DNA from: an uncultured Cohaesibacter sp.
Lineage (GTDB): Bacteria > Pseudomonadota > Alphaproteobacteria > Rhizobiales > Cohaesibacteraceae
DNA: 64,000 nucleotides
NCBI RefSeq assembly: GCF_963666525.1
Contig: NZ_OY762905.1
Coordinates: 4,071,501-4,135,500 of the forward strand
Direction: 5' to 3'
Shown: positions 6,546-64,000 of the stretch, in pieces
Layout of the letters: each line of letters begins with the position of its first letter
How positions within the stretch are numbered: the first letter of the stretch is position 1
Made by a program: the position numbers and the translations under genes
The notes under the pieces: generated by a model
Seen by the model: only the letters and a program-made list of their open reading frames with translations
Database searches by the model: none
What the model was told of the DNA's origin: nothing

Positions 6546-7553
6546 ATGATGACAAGCATGACTGGCAGATCAGACTATACCCTTGAATTGCGCGGTCTGG
6601 AGACCGTGTTTGATGGCGACAAGGGCGCCATTGCCGCTGTCCGCAATGTCAATCTGGCGATCAAGCCGGGTGAAATCGTAGGTTTGGTGGGCGAATCCGG
6701 CTCCGGCAAATCGGTGACAGGCCTGTCCATCATGGGCCTCATCGATCGGCCGGGCCGGGTCTCGAAAGGTGAGATCCTGCTCAATGGCGAGGATCTGCGC
6801 AAGGTGCCCGCCAAGCGCCTCAGGGCACTGCGCGGTGACCGCATGGCGATGATCTTTCAGGATCCCATGATGACCCTCAATCCGGTTCTGCGCATCGACA
6901 CGCAGATGATGGAGGCCATCACCGCCCACGATCCCAAGATCGACAAGACCATTGCCCGCAACCGCTGTCGCGACGCCCTCGGCATGGTCGGCATCCCCGA
7001 CCCCGAAGAAAGGCTCTATGCCTATCCGCACCAGTTCTCCGGCGGCATGCGCCAGCGCGTGGCCATTGCCATTGCAATGCTCAACAACCCGGACCTGATC
7101 ATCGCCGACGAGCCGACCACAGCGCTCGATGTGACCATTCAGGCCCAGATCATTGCCGAGATGCAGAAACTCTGCAAGGAACGCGGCACGGCGCTCATCT
7201 GGATCACCCACGACCTCACCGTGGTTGCCGAGCTGACCCAGCGTGTCTATGTGATGTATGCCGGCTCAGTCGTTGAAGAGGGGCCGCTGGATGACGTTCT
7301 GGACCGGCCGCTGCATCCTTATACGCAGGGGCTCATCCGCTCCATTCCGTCGGACAATACACCCGGTGCCCGTCTGTTCCAGATTCCGGGAATGACGCCC
7401 CCCATCGACCGCATGCCGAAGGGATGCCGGTTCCATCCTCGCTGCCCCTATGTCCAGCTCGATTGTCTCAATGACGTTGAACTGGTCGGGCAGGGCACTG
7501 GACGTCATGTCCGTTGTGTGCATCCGATCAGTCAGGGAGAACAAACCTCATGA
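6546..7553 (+). CDS. ABC transporter ATP-binding protein, DppD type
   Basis: The start is taken at the ATG at 6546, 5 bp after the permease stop, rather than at an upstream codon inside the permease; this gives 335 residues. Walker A is GESGSGKS (about 49-56), the signature is FSGGMRQRV, and Walker B is [12 protein letters not shown]. The C-terminus has the oligopeptide-type Cys-containing segment (CRFHPRCPY). It powers the importer together with the next ATPase. Confidence 0.94.
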
Positions 7554-8590
7554 TCTCCAATCCCCAGACCGAACTGGCAACCGCAGACGATCAGCGGGCT
7601 CCCTTGCTGGAAATCGACCATGTCACCCGGCGCTTCGAGCGCAAGCCCGACTTCGCCGCCAAACTGGCCGCCCGACTTGGTGCGCCAATCAATCGCCGCA
7701 CCGTGCATGCGGTTGATGACGCATCCTTTGCCATCCATCGCCGTGAAGTGGTGGGGCTTGTGGGCGAATCCGGTTGTGGCAAGTCCACTCTTGGCCGGAT
7801 CGTTGCCGGTATCGACAACCCGACCGAGGGCCGCATTCTCTACAATGGAGATGATGTCGCTCATGTCTCGTCGGAAGAGGCAAGACGGTTTCAGCTCAAG
7901 ATCCAGATGATCTTTCAGGATCCGCTGGATTCTCTCAATCCGCGCTATCGTATCGGCAAGGCAGTATCGGAAGCGGCTCGCTATCACAAGGTCGTCCCGG
8001 AAGCGGAGATGACCGCACACATCGAGAAGGTGCTGCTGCAGTGCGGTGTCGATCCGACCACCCAGAACCGCTTCCCGCACCAGTTCTCCGGTGGTCAGCG
8101 CCAGCGTATCGGTATCGCCCGTGCCCTTGCCGTGCGGCCCGAGCTGGTTGTCTGCGATGAGGCCGTGGCCTCGCTCGATGTCTCCATTCAGGCGCAGATC
8201 ATCAACCTGTTCATGGACTTGCGCGATGAATATGATCTGGCCTACCTGTTTGTCAGCCATGACATCGGCGTGGTTCGCCACATCTCCGACCGGGTCGTGG
8301 TGATGTATCTGGGCCGGATTGTCGAGCAGGGCACAACGGCAGACCTGTTTGCCAGGCCCAACCATCCCTACACCCAGGCGCTGCTGGGGCAGGTGCCGAG
8401 TCTCAAGCGGCGGCACTCTTCGTTCCACACCATCAAGGGTGAAATTCCCTCACCACTGAAGCCGCCCTCCGGATGTCATTTCCATCCCCGCTGCCCGCAT
8501 GCTATGGACATATGCAAGCAGGCAAGGCCACCGCTCAAGGAGGTCGCGTCCGGGCACATGTCCGCCTGCCATCTCAATGACAAGGGCTGA
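7550..8590 (+). CDS. ABC transporter ATP-binding protein, DppF type
   Basis: This 346-residue ATPase starts in an ATGA overlap with the DppD-type gene and is preceded by AGGGAGA. Walker A is GESGCGKST, the signature [10 protein letters not shown], and Walker B LVVCDEAVASLD. The C-terminal CHFHPRCPHAMDIC segment marks the oligopeptide-type subfamily. It is the second ATPase of the importer that begins at 912. Confidence 0.94.
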   Translation: MISNPQTELATADDQRAPLLEIDHVTRRFERKPDFAAKLAARLGAPINRRTVHAVDDASFAIHRREVVGLVGESGCGKSTLGRIVAGIDNPTEGRILYNGDDVAHVSSEEARRFQLKIQMIFQDPLDSLNPRYRIGKAVSEAARYHKVVPEAEMTAHIEKVLLQCGVDPTTQNRFPHQFSGGQRQRIGIARALAVRPELVVCDEAVASLDVSIQAQIINLFMDLRDEYDLAYLFVSHDIGVVRHISDRVVVMYLGRIVEQGTTADLFARPNHPYTQALLGQVPSLKRRHSSFHTIKGEIPSPLKPPSGCHFHPRCPHAMDICKQARPPLKEVASGHMSACHLNDKG

Positions 8591-52889: not shown

Positions 52890-53137
52890 CGCGTTCCCCT
52901 CTAGCACTCGTCTGTTTTACGTATCCTTGAGAGATATAGGCGTGGAATTGACGAGGGCAAGTCGGGTTCTTTGTTCGGGCGCACGGATGCATGATCGGCG
53001 ATATCAAACGAAAGCATTCTTGCGAACTGTGCCAAATAGCTGTAGCCAAGCTTCCAGGCGCCCTCCTGAGGGTGGTGCTACCGGGGCAACTGATTGCCCC
53101 GCAAGCAAAATAGCTTTCAATGGCGTGGTGTATGGCA

Positions 53138-53359
53138 ATGACTTATCTTGACAAATTTCCAACCGCAACCTTGCTGGTGATTGCATTGACCCTTGGCCTT
53201 GCCCCCTTCGTGCCAGAGCCTCATATCTGGGAAAAAATCAAGATGCTGTTGGCCGGCACCCTGACAAGGCCCGTCGACATATTCGATCTGTTGTTTCACG
53301 GCATTCCCTGGATATTGCTCGCGCTGAAACTGACAAGGCAGGCAACCAGACCAAACTAG
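53138..53359 (+). CDS. Small conserved two-helix membrane protein
   Basis: This protein of about 73 residues (ATG at 53138; in-frame ATGs also at 53120 and 53132) has two hydrophobic segments. I recognise the pattern, roughly FPTATLLVIALTLGLAPF, PEPHIWEKIKMLLAGTLTRP and DIFDLLFHGIPWILLALKL, as a short protein found widely in Proteobacteria. It is sometimes labelled RND transporter although far too small for that. The function is unknown. Confidence 0.75.
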   Translation: MTYLDKFPTATLLVIALTLGLAPFVPEPHIWEKIKMLLAGTLTRPVDIFDLLFHGIPWILLALKLTRQATRPN

Positions 53360-53932
53360 GCCTCTTCACCTCGTCCCTTTCTGACCTGTGGTGTCTACGC
53401 GCAGTGCCAATGCGTTCCTCATCAGGGCCATGATGAGAACTACGTAGAAGGAAGAAATTCGGCTTGTGCATTGATTCTCAAGGTAAAAAGTTACTTATAG
53501 GGCGCTGTGGAATAGTCTGACATTTGCGCCGAAAATGCACAGATTGATTCCCCCATTCGTTCAAATATTAATTATTTCATTCAAATAAAAATTTTGGCCA
53601 ATCCGAGACGAAATCCCAATTTATTACGATTCCAGTGTGCTCAACCCGGCAGGGCGGGAATGAATTGTAGAAATGGTTAAAAGTTTAACCTGTAAAATTT
53701 TTTCCATTGAGTACTACTACTTTAAAGAAAGAAATAAGCAGCTGTCTAAACGCCTTGGTTGCGAGAAGAGATGCCTTTTGAACGAAGGATCGACCGGGTT
53801 TGAGCGGTTTTGTCAGTTTTTCCATATTCCTGATTGCTAAATTCCAAATCGCTGCATCCGTGCTCAAAACTTGTCATCTTGGCGTCATTTGTGATCCACT
53901 ATTTTTGCAAAGCGACTAGTGGGTGATGGGAA
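53360..53932. other. A+T-rich intergenic region before the phosphonate-locus LysR gene
   Basis: No gene is supported in 573 bp. An imperfect hairpin (GTTCCTCATCA/TGATGAGAAC, about 53413-53440) follows the small membrane protein gene. The stretch 53520-53720 is strongly A+T-rich. A 60-codon minus-strand frame has no supporting features. Confidence 0.45.
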
Positions 53933-54802
53933 ATGAAATTATCAATCAATCAGATGCGAGCAGTGGAGGCCGTTGTTCGCACTGGCAGCTTCTCTGCCGC
54001 AGCAAAGGAGTTGGGTATCTCCCAGCCTTCCGTCTCCAACCATCTTTCGGCGTTGGAGAAGCATTATCGGACACAGCTGGTTCATCGCAACGGGCGACAG
54101 GCTGAGGCCACTGAAACCTGTAGGGAAATTCTCTCCCGCATCCGCTCGGTTCTCGCCATGACAGATGAGATCGAACACGCTCTTGAAGGAAGGCGGCGCA
54201 TGCAGGCCGGGTCTTTGCGTCTTGGCTATTCTACCTACCAGTTTGCCATGCCGATCCTGTCGACTTTCATGACGAAATTTCCCGACGTGGAGATCGAGGC
54301 CCGCGCCATGGCCTCCAACGACCTGTTGCCCCTTCTGGAAGACGGCAAGTTCGACGTTGTCTTTATCACGGCAAAGGAACCACCGCAGGGGCTCTACGTT
54401 CAGAAGATCCGCACCGAACCGATTGTCGTGGTCGTTCCCGAAGGTCATCCGCTCAGTGAGCGCCAGACGGCAAGCTGGAAGGATGTCGCCAGCTACCCGC
54501 TGGTGCAGCGTGAGAACAGCTCCGGAACCCGCCGGGTGTTCGAGAAAGCAGCGCTGAATGCCGGTATCAGACTGAATACGGTGCTGGCGCTTGGTTCCTG
54601 GGGGGCAATCGTTTCCACAATCAACGCCGGAATGGGCATTGGTGTCGCAATGGCAGGTGAGGTGTTGCCGTCGAACAATCTGGTCCCCATCCCGATCGAT
54701 GACGAGGCACTCAACGTCTCGCACTATCTCGCTTGCCTGCCGGAAATGCAGCACGTTTCGGCGATCCGGGCCATGTTCGATGCGGTCCACGCCTTGCAGT
54801 GA
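53933..54802 (+). CDS. LysR-family transcriptional regulator, likely controls the phosphonate locus
   Basis: This 289-residue protein has a LysR helix-turn-helix (MRAVEAVVRTGSFSAAAKEL, then ISQPSVSNHLSALEKHY). The effector domain is of the CysB/PhnR-like type. It is the first gene of the downstream block and is co-directional with the ABC importer, 139 bp apart. A T-N11-A palindrome lies between the two. The inducer could be AEP or a derivative, which is inference. LysR control of phnWX is known in other bacteria. Confidence 0.92.
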   Translation: MKLSINQMRAVEAVVRTGSFSAAAKELGISQPSVSNHLSALEKHYRTQLVHRNGRQAEATETCREILSRIRSVLAMTDEIEHALEGRRRMQAGSLRLGYSTYQFAMPILSTFMTKFPDVEIEARAMASNDLLPLLEDGKFDVVFITAKEPPQGLYVQKIRTEPIVVVVPEGHPLSERQTASWKDVASYPLVQRENSSGTRRVFEKAALNAGIRLNTVLALGSWGAIVSTINAGMGIGVAMAGEVLPSNNLVPIPIDDEALNVSHYLACLPEMQHVSAIRAMFDAVHALQ

Positions 54803-54848
54803 AGAACGGGTTGCAGATTGTGTGACCCTTTTATGTCAGGGTTGAAAC

Positions 54849-54865
54849 TATAGCTAAAAGCTATA
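54849..54865. promoter_or_regulatory. LysR-box-like palindrome before the ABC operon
   Basis: TATAGC-TAAAA-GCTATA is a perfect 6-bp inverted repeat with a 5-bp spacer and contains the classic T-N11-A core. It lies 77-93 bp before the binding-protein start, the usual place for a LysR activator site. Confidence 0.6.
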
Positions 54866-54941
54866 AAAGTCTGATGTTCATAAAACTGTTAAATGATCGC
54901 TCTAGGAAGGTCGTGCTCGATCCAAACAGGGAGACCTTCCA

Positions 54942-57008
54942 ATGAGCCCCAAATCCGTATTCCGCGCCGGTGCTGCTGCCGGTGTTGCCTATGTGGCGCT
55001 GAGCGCCTCTGCCTTTGCCGCCTGTCCCGTGGCAACTGTTGCAGACATGAAAGGCCTGACCTCCACCTATCCCGAACAGTTTGAACTGGCTGAATTCCAG
55101 AAGGCCGGCAGCTGCACCTTGTCCTTCACGCAGAATCCGGACATGGCCAGCTTCAACGCCCGCATTCTTGGCAACAAGGATCTGCCTGCCGTTGCCGATC
55201 GTCTGCCCGCCGAGCCGCTGGTTGTCGCGCCTTATGACGCTGTCGGCGTCTATGGCGGCGTGATCACGGGACTGTCCAAGGGCACCGAATCCGGCACCTC
55301 CGACCTTTTGTCCGTCCGTCACGTCAATCTGGTGCGCTATGCCGATGATCTTCAGACCGTCGTACCGAACGTCGCCAAGAGCTGGGAATGGAATGACGAC
55401 TACACCAAGCTGACTTTCACCCTGCGCAAGGGCCACAAATGGTCGGACGGCGAGCCCTTTACGGCGGCGGATATCGAATTCTGGTACAACGACATGATCC
55501 TGAACAAGGACGTGTATGAAAAGACCCCGGGCCGCTGGCTGTTTGCTGGCAAACCGGCAGTCGTCAAGGCTGAGGATGAGCTGACCGTTTCCTTCACTTT
55601 CCCGGTTCCGACGCCGGGCATCCTCAACCGCTTTGCCGTTGATTATGGGCAGGCTTTCCAGCCCAAGCATTTTCTCGCCCAATTCATGCCGAAATACAAC
55701 AAGGACGCCGACAAGCTGGCCCAGTCCATGGGGCTGGAAAATGGGGCCGCTGCAGTCAAGATGTATTACGGCGGATCGGACTGGAAGGACGTTCCGTCGC
55801 CGCTGCTAAAGGATGCGGAAATCGCCACCAAATTTGGCCGCGCCGTGGTGCCGACGCTGGAATCCCACATTGTGGTTGAAGAGAATGCCGAGGGCCGCAA
55901 GCTGGTCGCCAACCCGTATTTCCATATGGTTGACACCGCCGGCAATCAGCTGCCTTACATCCCGGAAATTTCCGAAACCTACGTCAAGGACAAGGAAGTC
56001 CAGAACCTCAAGATCATGAATGGCGAGGTGGTCTGGAAACAGCAGGCCGTGTTCCTTGAAGACTTCCCGCTGCTCAAGGAAAACGAGGCCAAGGGCAATT
56101 ACACGGTTTCCTACGCTCCAACCTTCGGCGAAAACATCTTCTTCTCCTTCAACCGCACCCACAAGGATCCGGTTCTGGCCGAGCTGTTCAATGACATCCG
56201 CTTCGAACGCGCCATGTCGATTGCACTTGACCGTGACGAAATCAACGAGATCGTCTATCTGGGGCAGGGCGTACCCGCTCAGGGCGTACCGGCCGAGCCG
56301 AAGACCGTGTCCTTCGTTTCCGAAGACATCCTCAAGCAGGATATCGCGTTCGATCAGGACCGTGCCAAGGCGCTGCTGGCAGAGATCGGCCTCAAGGACG
56401 CCGACGGTGACGGCACCCTGGAACGCCCGGATGGCAAACCGCTGGTCATCCGCCTGATCTATTCCTCTCAGGGTGTACCGGTGAAGATGATGGAACTGGT
56501 CCGCGATTACTGGTCTGCCGTTGGCGTCCGCATCGATCTCAAGGAAGTCACTTCCGACGAATACCGTGCCGGGGCCAACAACAACGATCTCGACCTGACC
56601 ACCTGGAAATATGATGGCACCTCCGGTCCAGCCATTTCCCAGGACGTGACCGCCTTCATTCCGCCATTCGGAGACGTCTTCAACCCGGGCACCGGTTTCG
56701 CATGGGCCCAGTGGAAGGATAGTGATGGCAAGGAAGGCGTCGAGCCACCTGCCTATGTCAAGGATCTCTACGGTCTTTCCGAGAAATTCCTGCAGGTTTC
56801 CATGGGCTCTGATGAATCCAACAAGCTGGGCGCCGAGATCGTCAAGATCCACGTCGACCACCTGCTGAAAATTGGTACCGTCGGCGATATCGTGGCGCCG
56901 TTCCTTTATCGCAACGACCTGAAAAACGTCAAGCCGATCAAGGCGAAGTCCTACGACTTCTACTGGACCTATCCATACCGCCCACAACAGTGGTTCCTGT
57001 CCAAATAG
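54942..57008 (+). CDS. ABC solute-binding protein, peptide type, long form (phosphonate locus)
   Basis: This 688-residue periplasmic receptor has a signal peptide (about 1-27, ending AFA-ACP) and AGGGAGA before the ATG. The family 5 core is present, with SWEWNDDYTKLTFTLRKGHK and a late DYWSAVGVRIDLKEV. It is about 150 residues longer than typical dipeptide-binding proteins and closer in size to YejA-like receptors. The neighbours encode AEP transaminase, phosphonoacetaldehyde hydrolase and a phosphonate monoester hydrolase. I infer that the ligand is a sizeable AEP conjugate. Confidence 0.92.
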   Translation: MSPKSVFRAGAAAGVAYVALSASAFAACPVATVADMKGLTSTYPEQFELAEFQKAGSCTLSFTQNPDMASFNARILGNKDLPAVADRLPAEPLVVAPYDAVGVYGGVITGLSKGTESGTSDLLSVRHVNLVRYADDLQTVVPNVAKSWEWNDDYTKLTFTLRKGHKWSDGEPFTAADIEFWYNDMILNKDVYEKTPGRWLFAGKPAVVKAEDELTVSFTFPVPTPGILNRFAVDYGQAFQPKHFLAQFMPKYNKDADKLAQSMGLENGAAAVKMYYGGSDWKDVPSPLLKDAEIATKFGRAVVPTLESHIVVEENAEGRKLVANPYFHMVDTAGNQLPYIPEISETYVKDKEVQNLKIMNGEVVWKQQAVFLEDFPLLKENEAKGNYTVSYAPTFGENIFFSFNRTHKDPVLAELFNDIRFERAMSIALDRDEINEIVYLGQGVPAQGVPAEPKTVSFVSEDILKQDIAFDQDRAKALLAEIGLKDADGDGTLERPDGKPLVIRLIYSSQGVPVKMMELVRDYWSAVGVRIDLKEVTSDEYRAGANNNDLDLTTWKYDGTSGPAISQDVTAFIPPFGDVFNPGTGFAWAQWKDSDGKEGVEPPAYVKDLYGLSEKFLQVSMGSDESNKLGAEIVKIHVDHLLKIGTVGDIVAPFLYRNDLKNVKPIKAKSYDFYWTYPYRPQQWFLSK

Positions 57009-57040
57009 GCCTTCAGTCCAAACAGTTCAAACCATTTGGC

Positions 57041-57061
57041 GCGGGGGGAACCCCCTCCCGC
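57041..57061 (+). other. G/C hairpin between binding-protein and permease genes
   Basis: GGGGG-AA-CCCCC with G+C-rich flanks lies in the 98-bp gap after the binding-protein gene. It has no T-run. As at 2518, it may stabilise the binding-protein message. Confidence 0.4.
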
Positions 57062-57106
57062 TCCCTTCCCCTCTTCAACAGGGGGGCTACCGTGTGAGGA
57101 CACGAT

Positions 57107-58102
57107 ATGCTTCGATTCACGCTTGAGCGACTGGTTGGCATGATTGTCACGATGGTGCTTGTTTCCATGATGGTCTTTCTGATCATGGAAATACCACCCG
57201 GCGACTATGCGGACCGCTATGCCTTCCGGAAATATTCCGGCACAGGCATCGCCATCACCGAAGCGGACATCGAGGCAATCCGCCATGACTTCGGCCTCGA
57301 TAAGCCGATGGCGCTACGCTATGTCGACTGGATTGGCAATATCGTCCTGCATGGCGATTTCGGGCAGGCCTTCGCCTTCGAGACCGATGTGACCAAGGTC
57401 ATCGGCGACAAGGCATGGCTGACCATGGCGATCCTGTTCGGGACCTTGCTGCTGACCTATCTGGTCTCGATACCCATCGGCATCTATGCCGCCGTAAGGC
57501 GCGCGTCGGCTGCGGACTACGGCCTGACTGTCTTTTCCTATCTCGGGCTGGCGCTGCCCAACTTTCTGCTGGCGCTGATCATGCTCTATTTTGCCAACCT
57601 GTGGTTTGGCGCCGACATTGGCGGCCTGTTTTCCGCAGGCATGGTCGATGCTTCCTGGTCCTTTGCCAAGGTCTGGGACCTGATAAAGCATCTCTGGCTG
57701 CCTGCCTTCGTGTTGGCATGGTCTGCGGTGGCCTATCAGATCCAGACCATCCGAGCCACCATGTCGGACGAACTCAACAAGCTTTCGGTGACGGCAGCGC
57801 GCGCCCGCGGTGTGCCGGAGACGAGACTGCTGATCAAATATCCTGCCCGCCTTGCCATCAACCCGGTGGTCTCCACCATCGGCTTTGACGTCAACCGCAT
57901 CTTCTCCGAGCTGCCCATCGTTGCGGTGGTGCTGGGGCTCACCGAACTCGGCGAGTTGCTGCTCAACGCCTATCTCGATCTCGACATGTATGTTGCCGGT
58001 GCCATTCTCCTGATGCTGACATTTGTCATCGTGGTCATGAATTTCATCTCGGACATCCTGCTGGCCTGGCTCGATCCGCGCATCAAACTGGGGAACAACT
58101 GA
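57107..58102 (+). CDS. ABC transporter permease, DppB type (phosphonate locus)
   Basis: This 331-residue permease starts behind GAGGA. It has an N-terminal helix, the LGLDKPMALRYVDWIGN-like periplasmic motif (here FGLDKPMALRYVDWIGN), five further helices and the coupling segment VTAARARGVPETRLLIKYP. The next permease starts 2 bp after its stop. Confidence 0.93.
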   Translation: MLRFTLERLVGMIVTMVLVSMMVFLIMEIPPGDYADRYAFRKYSGTGIAITEADIEAIRHDFGLDKPMALRYVDWIGNIVLHGDFGQAFAFETDVTKVIGDKAWLTMAILFGTLLLTYLVSIPIGIYAAVRRASAADYGLTVFSYLGLALPNFLLALIMLYFANLWFGADIGGLFSAGMVDASWSFAKVWDLIKHLWLPAFVLAWSAVAYQIQTIRATMSDELNKLSVTAARARGVPETRLLIKYPARLAINPVVSTIGFDVNRIFSELPIVAVVLGLTELGELLLNAYLDLDMYVAGAILLMLTFVIVVMNFISDILLAWLDPRIKLGNN

Positions 58103-58104
58103 CC

Positions 58105-59280
58105 ATGACAGACATGATTGAAAACAGGGTGCTGCCAACCGCTTCGGGCAAGGTCAGAAAAGAGAGTGCGAAAGCACAGAAAAAACGCCTCAAATATTAT
58201 TCCGCCAGTCAATGGACGCTGATCTGGTGGCGGTTCCGCCGTCATCGCGCTGCCATGGTGGCCGCTACCGTTCTGTTGCTGATGGCGCTGCTTGGTGCCT
58301 TCGCCGAATTCGTCGCGCCCTATGGACCAACCAGCCGAGACACAAAATATCTCGATGGTGCACCGCAGATCCCACTGTTTTGCGATCAGAACGGCTGTTC
58401 CTTGCGCCCCTTCGTGCATGGCGTGACGACGAAACGGGATCCCGTCACCCTGCGGGCCATATCTGTGCCAGACCCGGACAAGCGGGTCTATCTGACGTTC
58501 CTTGCGGAAGGAGAAAAGACCGATCTGCTCGGTTTCATTCCAACCAGCACCCATCTCTTCCTGCTTGATGACAAGCGGGCCAAGCTGCATCTCTGGGGCA
58601 CGGATGATCTGGGGCGGGATGTTTTCTCGCGCACCATCTATGCGACCCGCACTTCGCTCTCCATCGGCGTCATCGGCGTGCTGATCTCCTTCGTGCTGGC
58701 GCTCGTCATCGGTGGCGTGGCCGGATATGCCGGCGGATGGGTAGACAATGTCATCCAGCGCGTGACCGAGGTCATTCGCGTCGTGCCCATCATTCCGCTC
58801 TACATGGGCCTTGCCGCCGCCATGCCCAAGGAATGGTCGACCACCGAGGTTTATTTTGCCATGACGCTTATTTTGGGGTTGTTCGGCTGGCCGACGCTGG
58901 CGCGCCGCATTCGCTCGCAGCTGCTCTCCATCCGCTCCGAGGACTATGTGATCGCGGCCCGACTGGCCGGAGCGCGCCCCTTGCGCATCATATCCCAGCA
59001 TATGCTGCCCAGTTTCACCAGCTTCATCATCGTCGATCTGGTGATCTCTTTTCCCTACATGATCCTCAGCGAGACGGCCCTGTCCTTTGTCGGGCTCGGC
59101 CTGCGCCCGCCAACGGTTTCCTGGGGCGTGCTGCTGCAACAGGCGCAGTCGGTGCGGGTGATAGAGCAAACCCCGTGGCTGTTCATTCCGGCTGTGTTCG
59201 TCGTGCTCGCCGTGCTGGCCTTCACGGTGGTGGGCGATGGCTTGCGCGATGCGGCCGATCCCTATTCGGATGTGCGCTAG
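58105..59280 (+). CDS. ABC transporter permease, DppC type with enlarged periplasmic region (phosphonate locus)
   Basis: At 391 residues this is about 90 longer than a usual DppC. The extra sequence lies between the first helix (about 52-72) and the LWGTDDLGRDVFSRTIY motif near residue 165, in the periplasmic loop. It contains two Cys residues (LFCDQNGCSL). The channel half is otherwise standard, ending in ALSFVGLGLRPPTVSWG. The enlarged loop matches the enlarged binding protein and may help dock it. Confidence 0.92.
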   Translation: MTDMIENRVLPTASGKVRKESAKAQKKRLKYYSASQWTLIWWRFRRHRAAMVAATVLLLMALLGAFAEFVAPYGPTSRDTKYLDGAPQIPLFCDQNGCSLRPFVHGVTTKRDPVTLRAISVPDPDKRVYLTFLAEGEKTDLLGFIPTSTHLFLLDDKRAKLHLWGTDDLGRDVFSRTIYATRTSLSIGVIGVLISFVLALVIGGVAGYAGGWVDNVIQRVTEVIRVVPIIPLYMGLAAAMPKEWSTTEVYFAMTLILGLFGWPTLARRIRSQLLSIRSEDYVIAARLAGARPLRIISQHMLPSFTSFIIVDLVISFPYMILSETALSFVGLGLRPPTVSWGVLLQQAQSVRVIEQTPWLFIPAVFVVLAVLAFTVVGDGLRDAADPYSDVR

Positions 59281-59299
59281 GCACGGGAAGGACAGAGCC

Positions 59300-60301
59300 A
59301 TGTTGAAAGTCGAAAATCTCTCCATTTCCTTCCGCACGGATGAGGGCCTCATCACGCCGGTTGAGGATATCTCGTTTGAAGTGAGGCCGGGGCATACGCT
59401 GGGCATTGTCGGCGAGTCCGGTTCGGGCAAATCCATTTCCACCAAGGCGGTGATGCAGCTTCTGCCCGGCAACGGCATCATCTCCAAGGAAGCGAAGATC
59501 CTCTACACCGACAAATCCGGCAAGGTGCTGGACATCAACAAGCTGGGCAAGAAGGGCCGCGCCATCCGAGCCATTCGCGGCGGCGAGATCGGCATGATCT
59601 TTCAGGAACCAATGGCCTCCTTCTCGCCCGTCTATACCATTGGCAACCAGATGGTCGAGACCATTCGGCTGCACCGCAATGTCGGTCGCAAGGACGCCCG
59701 GCGCATCGCCATCGGGATGCTCGACAAGGTCGGCATCTCGAACCCGGAGGCCCGCATCGATCAGTATCCGCACGAAATGTCCGGCGGCATGCGCCAACGG
59801 GCGATGATCGCGCTGGCATTGTCCGCAGGCCCGGCCCTGTTGATTGCCGACGAACCGACCACTGCGCTCGATGTGACCATTCAGGCGCAAGTGCTCGACC
59901 TTATGCGCAAACTGCAGCGTGATCTCTCCATGGGCATGATCTTCATCACCCACGATCTGGGCGTGATCTCCCATATCGCCGATGACGTCGCGGTGATGTA
60001 TCTGGGCTCCATTGTCGAGCGTGGCCCGACTGACAAGGTCATTCATGAACCCGCCCATCCCTACACGCAAGGCCTGATCAAGGCCCTGCCGAGTGTGGAT
60101 CGCCTGCATGATCGCCTCACGCCTATTCCCGGCGACATCCCTAGCCCCAATGATCGCCCGACTGGCTGCCCGTTCCATACCCGGTGTTCCAAGATGATTG
60201 CGGGCCTTTGTGATCGCCACCAGCCGCAAATGCTGCAGGTGGGAGAGGATCACACGGTCCGTTGCTTCCTGCGTGAAAAACAGGAGAGGGCAACCGCATG
60301 A
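59300..60301 (+). CDS. ABC transporter ATP-binding protein, DppD type (phosphonate locus)
   Basis: The ATG at 59300 behind AAGGA is preferred to an upstream in-frame codon (333 residues). Walker A is GESGSGKS, the signature MSGGMRQRA and Walker [13 protein letters not shown]. The C-terminal [15 protein letters not shown] segment is the oligopeptide type. Its stop overlaps the next start. Confidence 0.94.
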
Positions 60302-61479
60302 GCCCCGATATGACCGACATGAATCTGCCTGACGACCAGACAATCGCCTCATCAAAGGTGCCTGCGGGCGAGCCGGGCGGTGAGTTGCTGATCGAGGTGA
60401 AAAACCTCGAGGTTCGCTTCCCGATCCGCAAGAAGAAGCTCTTCTCGTCCGAAACCGCCTATCTGCGGGCCGTTGATGATGTCAGCTTTGATATCCGCCG
60501 CGGCGAAACCGTCGGGCTGGTGGGGGAATCCGGTTCTGGCAAGACCACCGTTGGCCGCGCCATCCTGAGGGCCATCGACCCGACCGCGGGCGATGTAATC
60601 TTTCACACCCGTGAGCATGACATCTATCTGGGGGAGCTTGAAGGCGAGGAGCTGCGCCACGTCCGCAAGAAGATGGGCATGGTTTTTTCCGAAGGCCCCC
60701 ATTCCATTGCCAACATGACAAGCGACATCCTGCGGGCCTTCCGTCCGCGCATGAGCCTTGTCTTTCAGGATCCCTATTCGTCGCTCAACCCGCGCATGAC
60801 CGTGCGTGATATCATAGCCGAACCGCTGGTTGCCTCGGGCATGATGAAGAACCGCGAAAAGATCGATGAACGGGTGCGCGATATCGCAAGCCGTTGCAAG
60901 CTCAATCTGGAGCATTTGCGCCGCTTCCCCCACGCATTCTCCGGTGGCCAGCGCCAGCGCATCTGCATCGCCCGTGCTCTGGTGACGCGTCCGGATTTCG
61001 TTGTCTGCGACGAGAGCGTCTCGGCGCTCGATGTGTCCATTCAGGCCGAGATCGTCAATCTTCTGAAAGACCTGCAGGAGGAGATGGGCGTCGCCTTCCT
61101 GTTCATTGCCCATGACCTTTCGGTGGTGGCACAGATGTCGCATCGGGTGGCGGTGATGTATGTGGGAAAATTCGTCGAATATGCACCGACCGAAAGCCTG
61201 TTCTATACGCCGCGCCACCCCTACACCCACGCCCTGCTGTCGGCCATTCCGACCATCGACCCGGACGAGACCTTCGATCCGATCCGGCTGGAAGGGGAGA
61301 TCCCCAACCCGCTGGCGGCCCCTTCGGGCTGTCGCTTCCACACCCGTTGCCCCTATGCCACGGAGCAGTGTGCCAGCACGATCCCCGAATGGCAGGAGGT
61401 GGCACCGGAGCATTTTGTCGCCTGCCACAGGGTGGCCGAATTTGATTTCTCCCGGCAGCGCAAGGATGCTCCCGAGTGA
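60298..61479 (+). CDS. ABC transporter ATP-binding protein, DppF type with insertion (phosphonate locus)
   Basis: This 393-residue ATPase starts in an ATGA overlap. Walker A is GESGSGKTT, the signature FSGGQRQRI and Walker [13 protein letters not shown]. About 40 extra residues lie between Walker A and the Q-loop (from [11 protein letters not shown] to [12 protein letters not shown]). The C-terminal [14 protein letters not shown] segment is present. It completes the importer begun at 54942. Confidence 0.93.
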
Positions 61480-61619
61480 GTTTGAAGCGAGTGAGTTTCA
61501 AGCATGAAAGGGGCGGGCAAGCGCAAGGATGCAGAGACATCCATCGGCATACGACCCCTGAAACAAGACAAGAAAACCAGATAACAACAAAAGCAATTTG
61601 AGAAAAAGAGGAACGTCCC

Positions 61620-62834
61620 ATGTCTGAACAGGACACACTGAGCCCGCTCCGGGCTTCCCCATGCGGGCTGCCCGACCCACAACTCGGTGAGCCTTTTCTG
61701 CTCACCCCCGGGCCGTTGACAACATCCTATGTTGTCAAGCAGGCGATGCTGAAGGACTGGGGCAGCTGGGATGACGATTTCCGCACCATGACCGCAGACA
61801 TGCGCCGTTGTCTGCTCGATCTGCTGGGTGATGAAAAGGACGCCTTCGAATGCATCCCGATGCAGGGCTCCGGCTCCTATCTGGTCGAAGCGATGCTCGG
61901 AACCATGGTGCCGAAGGATGGCAAGCTCCTGGTGTTGGCCAACGGTGCCTATGGCCTCAGGGCCGCCAGGACGATGGAAGTGATCGGCAGGGCCTTCCAT
62001 CTGCTGGACAAGGGCGATTATCTGCCGCCACGCGGGGCCGAGGTTGCCGAGATCCTCGCCAATGACCCGGCCATCACCCATGTGCTGGCGATCCATTGCG
62101 AAACCAGTTCGGGCATTCTCAATCCGGTCGCCGAGATTTCCGAGGCCACCTACGCGGCGGGGCGCAAGCTGCTGGTCGATTCCATGTCGGCGTTTGGCGC
62201 CGTGCCGATGGAGCCGGGCACGATCCGCTATGAGGCGCTGGTCTCCTCGGCCAACAAATGCATCGAGGGTGTCCCGGGCTTCGGCTTTGCACTGGTGCGC
62301 CGCAGTGAACTCATCGCCAACAGGGGCAACTGTCATTCCCTCAGCCTTGATCTTCATGCCCAGTGGGAAAGCATGGAGAAAACCGGCCAGTGGCGCTTTA
62401 CACCGCCAACCCATGTGGTCGCCGCCTTCCTTGAAGCCCTCAAGGCCCATCAAACCGAAGGGGGCGTCGCCGCAAGAGGGGCTCGCTATGCCAACAATCG
62501 CGACGTGATGGTGGCCGGTATGCGGGCGCTGGGCTTTGAAACCCTGCTTGACGAGCGCTGGTTGTCGCCGATCATTGTCACTTTCTTCTGTCCGGCCGAT
62601 GAGCGGTTCGAATTCAATCGTTTCTATGGCCTGATGAAAGACAAGGGCTTCATCATCTATCCGGGCAAGTTGACGGTCGTGGACAGCTTCCGCATCGGCT
62701 GCATCGGCCAGATGGACGCCCCCATCATGCGCCGCGTCGTCGCAGCAGCCCGACAGAGCCTTGAGGAAATGGGTGTGACATCGGCTGCCCCGCCCGCAGC
62801 AGCTTTTGAAGAACGCAAGAAACTGAACGCCTGA
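61620..62834 (+). CDS. phnW: 2-aminoethylphosphonate:pyruvate aminotransferase
   Basis: This 404-residue class V aminotransferase starts behind AGAGGAA. PhnW markers are the opening LLTPGPLTTS, then DWGSWDDDF, the substrate loop MQGSGSYLVEA, and PLP-binding Lys213 in SSANKCIEG. It transfers the amino group of AEP to pyruvate to give phosphonoacetaldehyde and alanine. The next gene encodes the enzyme that uses this product. The N-terminus is about 25 residues longer than minimal PhnW. Confidence 0.95.
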   Translation: MSEQDTLSPLRASPCGLPDPQLGEPFLLTPGPLTTSYVVKQAMLKDWGSWDDDFRTMTADMRRCLLDLLGDEKDAFECIPMQGSGSYLVEAMLGTMVPKDGKLLVLANGAYGLRAARTMEVIGRAFHLLDKGDYLPPRGAEVAEILANDPAITHVLAIHCETSSGILNPVAEISEATYAAGRKLLVDSMSAFGAVPMEPGTIRYEALVSSANKCIEGVPGFGFALVRRSELIANRGNCHSLSLDLHAQWESMEKTGQWRFTPPTHVVAAFLEALKAHQTEGGVAARGARYANNRDVMVAGMRALGFETLLDERWLSPIIVTFFCPADERFEFNRFYGLMKDKGFIIYPGKLTVVDSFRIGCIGQMDAPIMRRVVAAARQSLEEMGVTSAAPPAAAFEERKKLNA

Positions 62835-62857
62835 AGGCCACACAGAGGAGAAGACCC

Positions 62858-63631
62858 ATGACAGAGATCAAGGCCGTTGTGTTCGACTGGGCCGGAACGC
62901 TGGTTGACTTTGGCAGCTTTGCGCCAATGGGCGTGTTCGTCAAATGCTTCGAGCAGTTTGGCATCAAGGCCTCCATCGAGCAGGCCCGCGCTCCAATGGG
63001 GCTGCCGAAGTGGGCTCACATTCGCGCCATGATGGACGATGAAGCCATCGCGACCCAGTGGCAGGCCAAATACGGCCATGCCCCGACCGACGCGGATGTC
63101 GACAGCATCTATGAGATCTTCGTGCCGATGAACGAAAAGGTCGCTGCCGACTATGCCGACCTCGTCCCCGGCGCGCTCGAAACCATCGCCTGGCTGCGGG
63201 CACGTGGTATCAGGATCGGCTCGACCACCGGTTATACCCGATCGATCATGGAGCATGTGCTGCCTGTTGTCAAAGCGCAAGGTTTCGAGCCGGACAATCT
63301 CATCTGCGCCGATGACCTCGCCGAAGGGCGCCCCGGCCCGCTCGGCATGTATCAGACCTTTGTGGATCTGGCGGTCTATCCGCCCTCTGCGGTCATCAAG
63401 GTCGACGACACTGTGCCCGGCCTCAAGGAAGGTGTCGCCGCTGGCTGCATCACTGTCGGGCTGGCGCTTTCGGGCAATTTTGTCGGCCGGACGCCGGAAG
63501 AGCTGGCCTCCATGCCGGAAAAGGAAATTGCCAGCTTGCGACAGGCGGCAACCGTGCTACTCAAGGAGGGCGGGGCAGACCATGTCATCGATACGGTGGC
63601 TGATCTGCCAGCCCTCATCGAAACACTCTGA
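62858..63631 (+). CDS. phnX: Phosphonoacetaldehyde hydrolase (phosphonatase)
   Basis: This 257-residue HAD-family enzyme starts behind AGAGGAGA, 23 bp after phnW. The nucleophile motif is FDWAGT (Asp10). The Schiff-base Lys51 is in the cap segment PMGLPKWAHIR, which matches the PhnX pattern. It cleaves the C-P bond of phosphonoacetaldehyde to acetaldehyde and phosphate. Confidence 0.95.
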   Translation: MTEIKAVVFDWAGTLVDFGSFAPMGVFVKCFEQFGIKASIEQARAPMGLPKWAHIRAMMDDEAIATQWQAKYGHAPTDADVDSIYEIFVPMNEKVAADYADLVPGALETIAWLRARGIRIGSTTGYTRSIMEHVLPVVKAQGFEPDNLICADDLAEGRPGPLGMYQTFVDLAVYPPSAVIKVDDTVPGLKEGVAAGCITVGLALSGNFVGRTPEELASMPEKEIASLRQAATVLLKEGGADHVIDTVADLPALIETL

Positions 63632-63655
63632 TCGTCACCGGGGAGAGCCCTCATC

Positions 63656-64000
63656 ATGTCGAGACCGAATATCATTCTCATCACTGCCGATCAGTGGCGT
63701 GGCGACTGTCTGGGCGCCGTCGGGCATCCGACGATCAGGACCCCCAATCTCGATGCGCTGGCCGCCGATGCCGTGCTGTTCCGCAATCACTATTGCACCA
63801 CGGCCCCCTGTTCTCCGGCGCGGGCCTCGCTCTATACGGGCCTTTATCAGATGAACCATCGGGTGGTGCAGAACGGCGCTCCATTGGCCGATGGCCTTGA
63901 TACGCTGGCAAAGGCGGGGCGGCGGGCTGGCTACAGGCCGACCCTGTTCGGCTATACCGACACCGCGCTCGACCCGCGCGTTCTGGCACCGGATGATCCG
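63656..64000 (+). CDS. Sulfatase-fold phosphonate monoester hydrolase, 3' part outside window
   Basis: The frame starts at the ATG at 63656 behind GGGGAGAG and stays open to the window end (115 codons). It begins RPNIILITADQWRGD, the alkaline phosphatase/sulfatase fold with a metal-binding Asp. The formylglycine motif is C-S-P-A-R (Cys52). The following GLYQMNHRVVQN and GYTDTALDPR match what I recall of rhizobial phosphonate monoester hydrolase (PMH) rather than ordinary arylsulfatases. No signal peptide is present, so it acts in the cytoplasm. PMH enzymes hydrolyse phosphonate monoesters and phosphodiesters. The full length is about 510 residues in the family. Confidence 0.85.
   Translation, partial: MSRPNIILITADQWRGDCLGAVGHPTIRTPNLDALAADAVLFRNHYCTTAPCSPARASLYTGLYQMNHRVVQNGAPLADGLDTLAKAGRRAGYRPTLFGYTDTALDPRVLAPDDP

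Follow-up and report, generated by a model that had tools for sequence, protein, structure and literature searches.

What does an ATP-binding cassette (ABC) importer of apparent peptide type do beside genes for the breakdown of 2-aminoethylphosphonate (AEP) and a gene for a relative of the phosphonate monoester hydrolases (PMH)? The question is raised by the end of a 64,000-nucleotide stretch of DNA from an uncultured Cohaesibacter sp. (contig NZ_OY762905.1, positions 4,071,501 to 4,135,500), referred to here as the window, which is part of a complete 5.18 Mb chromosome (G000:C1:4071501-4135500). We consider it probable that these genes form a cassette for the uptake of AEP or N-methyl-AEP esters, their cleavage by the PMH-family enzyme and subsequent AEP catabolism. 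As a module the cassette is well supported by comparative genomics, while its ligand and activity are predicted.

PhnW converts AEP to phosphonoacetaldehyde, and PhnX converts the latter to acetaldehyde and phosphate; this chemistry is established in the literature. In the proposed pathway an SBP_bac_5 ABC importer, consisting of a receptor, two permeases and two ATPases, would bring in an AEP ester, or an N-methyl-AEP ester at some sister loci. An intracellular, formylglycine-dependent PMH would then cut the P-O-C bond to yield AEP and an alcohol, and the AEP would be degraded by PhnW and PhnX. Glycerol, a sugar or a lipid head group may be the partner to which AEP is esterified. The LysR-type regulator probably controls the cassette at an ATAGC-N5-GCTAT site. 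We infer which ligand is bound, that its ester bond is cleaved in vivo, that import leads on to hydrolysis and what the regulator does.

Composition of the cassette

All of the genes from 53933 to 65224 are open and lie on the + strand in the order LysR, five-gene SBP_bac_5 importer, phnW, phnX and hydrolase, which bears out the gene calls and the single direction given by an earlier, sequence-only reading of this DNA.

53933..54802, +, LysR-type regulator; nearest model TIGR03339, below cut-off
54850..54864, no strand, candidate LysR operator ATAGC-N5-GCTAT, 77 nt 5' of the receptor start; conserved 5' of the receptor gene in Cohaesibacter loci, and equally spaced in L149 and L161
54942..57008, +, periplasmic receptor, SBP_bac_5 (PF00496, 1.1e-55), 688 aa, N-terminus signal-like by inspection
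57107..58102, +, permease B; profile-model matches
58105..59280, +, permease C, 391 aa; profile-model matches
59300..60301, +, ATPase D; the mechanical open reading frame (ORF) starts at 59237, and 59300 is likelier, judging by where the family matches begin
60298..61479, +, ATPase F; profile-model matches
61620..62834, +, PhnW, AEP:pyruvate aminotransferase; NF010006, TIGR02326 and TIGR03301 all above cut-off
62858..63631, +, PhnX, phosphonoacetaldehyde hydrolase; TIGR01422, 331.9 bits, cut-off 220
63656..65224, +, PMH-family hydrolase, 522 aa, 3' part outside the window (L004:11157-12725); PF00884 and PMH structures

PhnW scored 544.1 bits against the curated NCBIfam model NF010006 (cut-off 296). 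As phnW and phnX are adjacent and each product exceeds its curated cut-off, the PhnWX pathway is represented at this locus. The enzymes and their order are those of the known PhnW-PhnX pathway of AEP degradation, and a LysR gene is likewise present; the cassette differs in having a cluster-C type ABC importer before these genes and a PMH-family ester hydrolase after them. The SBP_bac_5 receptor, two permeases and two ATPases (D and F, both of the oligo_HPY type) give the importer an Opp/Dpp-type composition.

Reading past position 64000, as the earlier reading had suggested, showed that the hydrolase is complete at 522 aa and stops at 65224, 1.2 kb beyond the window end. It has the sulfatase fold of the alkaline phosphatase superfamily (PF00884, 183.2 bits). 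Its closest solved relative was 4uph (1.3e-171), followed by two phosphonate monoester hydrolases, 2w8s (5.9e-104) and 2vqr (2.3e-99). The N-terminus reads MSRPNIILITADQW, in which no signal stretch was seen by inspection, and the CxPxR formylglycine motif is C52-S-P-A-R56. Residues D12, Q13, C52, R56, N73, Y100, H213, D335, H336 and K348 are the counterparts of what we take to be the catalytic set of the R. leguminosarum PMH. Among 94 aligned family rows from the loci described below, D335, H336 and K348 were present in all 94, the other catalytic positions in 93 and P54 in 91; C52 was missing only from L118, in which the ORF is split. Thus, the hydrolase shares the fold, the CxPxR motif, the presumed catalytic set and, by inspection, the lack of a signal stretch with the PMH/phosphodiesterase enzymes of Rhizobium leguminosarum (2vqr), 2w8s and 4uph, and differs from them in missing the PehA cut-off and in being linked to AEP genes. 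A candidate formylglycine maturase was found in all 11 cassette-bearing Cohaesibacter genomes, by PF03781 in eight and by TIGR03942 above cut-off in three (G175, G219 and G302). The window's genome has two PF03781 matches and none to TIGR03942; PF03781 is broader than the formylglycine-generating enzyme and also matched 4 of 14 control genomes.

The fold, together with a weak match to the arylsulfatase model NF010322 (221.8 bits, cut-off 481), would allow the hydrolase to be a sulfatase whose linkage to AEP genes is incidental. We regard this as very improbable, since PMH structures outscore sulfatases by far and the AEP linkage recurs with two hydrolase lineages, also where this importer is absent.

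Recurrence of the cassette and exchange of its parts

Genome contigs were scanned for the receptor and the best 80 of 298 relatives were retained, so that the counts given here describe nearest relatives. We compiled 116 receptor loci, assigned their neighbouring genes by tblastn, and built a FastTree phylogeny from 109 of the loci, the window and two outgroup rows. The second copies L131, L132, L134, L142, L155 and L202 were left out of the tree, as was L164, a locus with PhnW and a hydrolase in which the receptor is cut at 560 aa.

The receptor was detected at E <=1e-60 in 13 of 18 Cohaesibacter genomes, 11 times at an identity of at least 80% and twice at 51%. The collinear cassette was present in 11 of the 18, namely those with the closer receptor; in one of them, G301, the contig stops within the hydrolase. 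The window receptor shares 98% identity with the receptor of Cohaesibacter haloalkalitolerans JC131. In the 11 Cohaesibacter genomes of an order sample, the receptor (E 1e-120) and PMH (E 1e-100) occurred together in seven and were both missing in the other four. The collinear order receptor-B-C-D-F-(PhnW or TIGR03364 enzyme)-PhnX-hydrolase extends beyond this genus into further families and orders, being found in Roseibium, Amorphus, Fluviibacterium, Roseovarius and others. From receptor to hydrolase, and with no adjoining LysR gene, this order is also present on a Rhodobacteraceae plasmid from the gut of a sea cucumber, and a plasmid search with the hydrolase gave two records (52.5% and 40.7%). 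Ten of the 297 genomes of the order sample contain a receptor of at least 60% identity. PhnX was present in 10 of these 10, compared with 47 of 297 overall and 0 of 14 control genomes, and PMH (E 1e-100) in 9 of 10, G100 being the exception, compared with 54 of 297. The ten genomes are not independent cases because seven of them come from one genus. From these genome comparisons we conclude that the cassette is a real unit, beyond chance.

The window receptor falls into a clade of 33 rows with a local support of 100, which we call clade A. AEP genes were in reach at 29 of the 33 loci, as PhnW and PhnX in 22 (one with PbfA too), as a TIGR03364 enzyme and PhnX in six, and as PhnW, PhnA and PhnY in one; the TIGR03364 members of L046, L066 and L111 scored above cut-off. 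A PMH-family hydrolase was in reach at 25 of the 33. The co-occurrence of this receptor subfamily with phnW, phnX and PMH, which the earlier reading had put forward for a genome search, was thereby found. The spacing is also kept: on the receptor strand, and by mechanical ORF starts, the PhnW or TIGR03364 gene begins some 4.0-5.0 kb downstream of the receptor, and the hydrolase gene some 5.7-7.0 kb downstream of it. The occupants of these positions vary. The hydrolase is of the window type in 17 of the 25 loci and belongs to a lineage 33-36% identical to the window PMH in the other eight. At L149 (9431-10351) and L161 (18362-19285) a CehA/McbA-type PHP metallohydrolase follows PhnX in the place of PMH; the two proteins are 74% identical to each other and are candidates for an unrelated phosphonate-ester hydrolase. 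The PbfD enzymes, among which PbfD1 is a TIGR03364 member, form phosphonoacetaldehyde by oxidation of N-methyl-AEP and AEP (PMC10590968), so the loci with a TIGR03364 enzyme point to N-methyl-AEP cargoes too. Because both the AEP-opening enzyme and the hydrolase are exchanged while the plan stays constant, the positions appear to be functional slots for an importer, an ester hydrolase and an AEP route. We consider this exchange of parts the strongest argument for such slots.

The importer might instead carry free AEP or a related free aminophosphonate, with PMH acting incidentally on other phosphodiesters or on phosphonate esters. Consistent with this, PhnWX requires free AEP, and at L111, L149, L150 and L161 the importer and AEP genes occur together while a PMH-family hydrolase is missing from the region in reach (the contig of L150 stops 4.3 kb past the receptor). 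However, PMH-family hydrolases occur at 25 of the 33 clade A loci and the PHP metallohydrolase replaces PMH at L149 and L161, the AEP importers covered by PMC8316502 and PMC10574752 are of other kinds and are described for free phosphonates, and the nearest solved relatives of the receptor with known ligands bind sugars. Uptake of the free compound is therefore unlikely in our judgement.

Across 110 tree rows the AEP genes and the hydrolase were associated (Fisher p 1.3e-6, uncorrected for kinship). The AEP label changes 15 times over the whole receptor tree, which indicates that gains or losses recur. Identity matrices were correlated for receptor and PhnX (rho 0.66, 28 rows) and for receptor and hydrolase (rho 0.56, 25 rows), above all 2000 permutations in each case, as is expected of genes that travel together. 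We also surveyed PMH in the order sample, where it occupies 55 places in 54 genomes. The 40 loci fetched were the closest ones, omitting the window's own and G232, and are thus a non-random set; PhnX was in reach at 13 of them and the importer at 8. Five loci (L040, L041, L044, L047 and L069) join a TIGR03364 enzyme, PhnX and PMH without an SBP_bac_5 importer. At L044, PotD-like and PotI/PotC-like genes lie nearby, below cut-off.

Several results weigh against uptake and cleavage of AEP esters. With the tree considered, the AEP genes and the hydrolase co-vary only moderately: in independent pairs differing in AEP genes (n=13), the hydrolase changed the same way in 7.0 and the opposite way in 0.8 (median p 0.039), and the reverse test (n=15) gave 6.4 and 0.7 (median p 0.070). 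No AEP gene lies in reach of four clade A loci (L137, L138, L139 and L141), and PhnX was not found in their genomes, two of which (L138 and L141) are metagenome-assembled genomes (MAGs); a 39-43% PMH relative lies elsewhere in three of the four. PhnX was present in 11 of 22 genomes checked in which it is not beside the receptor, and a PMH relative in 8 of 23 genomes checked for one. The hydrolase scored 465 bits with the PehA model NF045661, well below the cut-off of 900, and is placed in the PMH family in the wide sense only. The breadth of PF03781 also counts here. The window's genome also holds C-P lyase PhnJ and PhnD-type receptors, so other phosphonate routes exist. Sites matching a Pho-box consensus numbered 5 in the window, with 5.72 expected, leaving phosphate control unsupported. 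Lastly, no PhnX was in reach at 27 of the 40 fetched PMH loci, which indicates that the PMH family has other uses. The earlier proposal of an AEP-ester importer with an intracellular hydrolase survives the comparisons, and is strengthened by the swapped parts at fixed positions, but the PMH family as a whole is not tied to AEP.

The receptor and its predicted cargo

The best PDB match to the receptor by sequence was SPH1118 (2.3e-79), a cluster-C protein that binds pectin and whose cleft is large and positively charged (PMC9314435). An AlphaFold2 model of the receptor built from 33 sequences had a pLDDT of 84.2 and a pTM of 0.83. A fold search with this model ranked SPH1118 first, followed by a putative OppA (5ipw) and MelB, which binds melibiose, galactinol and raffinose. 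SPH1118 is therefore the nearest solved receptor to that of the window, with 28-29% identity in the fold match.

We mapped 15 ligand-contact residues of SPH1118 (PMC9314435) onto the window receptor; the numbering was correct for 15 of 15, and 14 reach a window residue, S298 falling in a gap. The uronate-binding residues Arg57, Arg438, Arg466, Arg496 and Trp594 correspond to L123, Q510, S538, D568 and Y671, each of which is conserved in at least 16 of the 17 clade A receptor rows. Because the uronate-binding residues are replaced, the receptor is, by this alignment, no plain pectin binder. Pocket residues K556 and K669 were present in 17 of 17 clade A rows and D568 in 16, and each was absent in at least six of seven sister rows. 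The lysines and the aspartate would suit a zwitterionic aminophosphonate, as judged from an alignment at about 28% identity.

The earlier reading had described the importer as peptide-type. The SBP_bac_5 receptor domain and the Opp-type permeases and ATPases agree with this description, but it has to be qualified: the receptor is nearest to a pectin-binding cluster-C protein, and a kinship of that sort provides no evidence for peptides. The receptor scored far below the Opp/Dpp receptor models (Opp4A, 95.3 with a cut-off of 650; DppA, 44.8 with a cut-off of 1005). By Opp/Dpp kinship the cargo could be an AEP-bearing or other phosphono-peptide, for which the receptor domain, permeases and ATPases speak; with no peptidase in the cassette, the Opp/Dpp models below cut-off and a nearest solved receptor that binds pectin, we find this scarcely credible. 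The model scores and the missing peptidase led us to drop the peptide reading of the importer.

Relation to known systems

The described AEP importers PhnCDE, PhnSTUV, AepXVW, AepSTU and AepP serve phosphonate uptake, as the importer of the cassette would. Their described ligands are free phosphonates, whereas the receptor here is an SBP_bac_5 protein outside the PhnS2 model. No receptor in the window's genome exceeded the cut-off of that model (TIGR03261, 392.75); the single match lies elsewhere and scored 133.1 bits. The AEP importers and pathways described in the literature consulted here begin with the free compound. Release of phosphonates from esters by a PMH relative has been proposed before: the Sulfitobacter PEH, a PMH relative, was suggested to release phosphonates from polysaccharide esters of marine dissolved organic matter (PMC5649143). 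That suggestion concerned strains with C-P lyase, whereas here the cassette is conserved and has an importer of its own together with enzymes specific for AEP. Compared with the PbfD clusters for N-methyl-AEP and AEP (PMC10590968), the TIGR03364 enzyme takes the place of PhnW at some sister loci; the main text of that paper contains no match for monoester, sulfatase or ABC transporter, and the main text of a 2023 review (PMC10574752) none for monoester or esterified. The earlier reading knew of no description of this exact combination. We likewise found none in the open-licence literature searched joining PMH, AEP genes and a peptide-type importer, which is not proof of absence, and no earlier account there of the cassette, its importer or its exchange of parts.

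Bacterial phosphonate synthesis feeds largely cell-surface molecules bearing compounds such as AEP (PMC6697681), and phosphonates occur in lipids and glycans (PMC8316502). If the proposed function is correct, a conserved importer and ester hydrolase preceding AEP catabolism would account for the use of bound AEP by bacteria, one step would be added to the marine phosphorus cycle, and PMH, long an orphan hydrolase family, would gain a natural substrate class that can be tested. The receptor clade provides a ready genomic marker.

Sister loci, regulation and surroundings

Clade B of the receptor tree comprises 58 rows, mostly at about 50% identity. A PMH-family hydrolase was in reach at 30 of the 58 and AEP genes at 16, in 11 cases as PhnW and PhnA. 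At Marivita L178, PhnA, PhnY and PbfA exceeded their cut-offs. Ruegeria conchae L036 encodes an IMPase-family protein (best model histidinol-phosphatase, 245.9 with a cut-off of 275.15), a glutamine synthetase-like enzyme, an aldehyde dehydrogenase, an iron alcohol dehydrogenase and an annotated N-formylglutamate amidohydrolase. L126, L185 and L190 have all five enzymes as well, and L184 and L201 have four of them; a PMH-family hydrolase is in reach at each of these loci, L036 included, except L190. Compared by type and annotation rather than by sequence, these enzymes resemble the ethanolamine gamma-glutamyl operon of Phaeobacter MED193 (PMC10132767). The natural reading of L036-type loci would be a phosphoethanolamine-ester version of the uptake system.

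Beyond the cassette, at L004:12760-19901 (65259-72400 in window numbering), come a convergent metallophosphoesterase gene and genes for a GlpR-like regulator with a UgpCBAE-like importer; none of these matches reaches a curated cut-off. The metallophosphoesterase scored 132.8 with the SpdA model (cut-off 400), had 2zo9 as its best PDB match (8.1e-12), and has SpdA-like counterparts at 7 of 10 other distinct Cohaesibacter loci. At Rhodovulum L161, relatives of UgpB (55%) and UgpA (58%) are encoded on the other strand, directly beyond the AEP cassette. A tie to compounds of the glycerol phosphate type is possible but weak.

These neighbours, and the sister loci with IMPase-like phosphatase and ethanolamine gamma-glutamyl enzyme types (PMC10132767), most of which have a PMH-like hydrolase, would fit a module that serves aminoethyl-phosphorus or glycerophospho-type diesters generally, phosphate and phosphonate alike, with AEP as one of several cargoes. 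The near invariance of K556, D568 and K669 in 17 clade A rows, and their absence in at least six of seven sister rows, argue for a narrower ligand in clade A, and we think so broad a cargo range distinctly improbable. We tentatively offer a different generalisation of AEP-ester uptake. The receptor family may define two sister systems that take up esters of aminoethyl-phosphorus head groups: a phosphonate version for AEP or N-methyl-AEP (completed by PhnWX, PbfD-PhnX or PhnWAY) and a phosphate version for phosphoethanolamine esters, completed by an IMPase-like phosphatase together with the ethanolamine gamma-glutamyl pathway. Both would depend on PMH-family enzymes, whose natural role might then be to cleave imported aminoethyl-phosphorus esters inside the cell.

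The best model for the LysR-type regulator was TIGR03339, that of the LysR protein of AEP catabolism, at 209 bits with a cut-off of 341.1. The gap between LysR and the receptor contains ATAGCTAAAAGCTAT (54850-54864) as the candidate operator. Sixteen of the 116 loci have the pattern ATAG[CT]-N5-[AG]CTAT upstream; its distance from the called start is 76-79 nt in 12 Cohaesibacter rows (three of them second copies), L149 and L161, and differs from this in L061 and L140. A search of 53000-64000 with Rfam gave no match at gathering level, and promoter-like and terminator-like sites were no more frequent than in shuffled sequence.

Further observations concern relatives of the importer. DNA near 7035-8386 of the window (G000:C1:4078535-4079886) resembles the cassette ATPases and probably belongs to another Opp/Dpp-type importer. 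L137, L139 (Ruegeria arenilitoris) and the Sneathiella MAG L141 have receptors at 76-78% with AEP genes not nearby. Of the 19 tree rows outside clades A and B (Trueperaceae, Chloroflexota and others), three have AEP genes. This importer type occurs outside Proteobacteria in L146, a Trueperaceae MAG with PhnX directly 5' of the receptor, and in Chloroflexota MAGs among L162-L176; at L172 a universal stress protein follows the ATPases. A 1.6 Mb genome (L130, G290:C33) contains a 46% receptor relative and, beyond the ATPases on the opposite strand, PhnX (36%) and a TIGR03364-like gene (38%).

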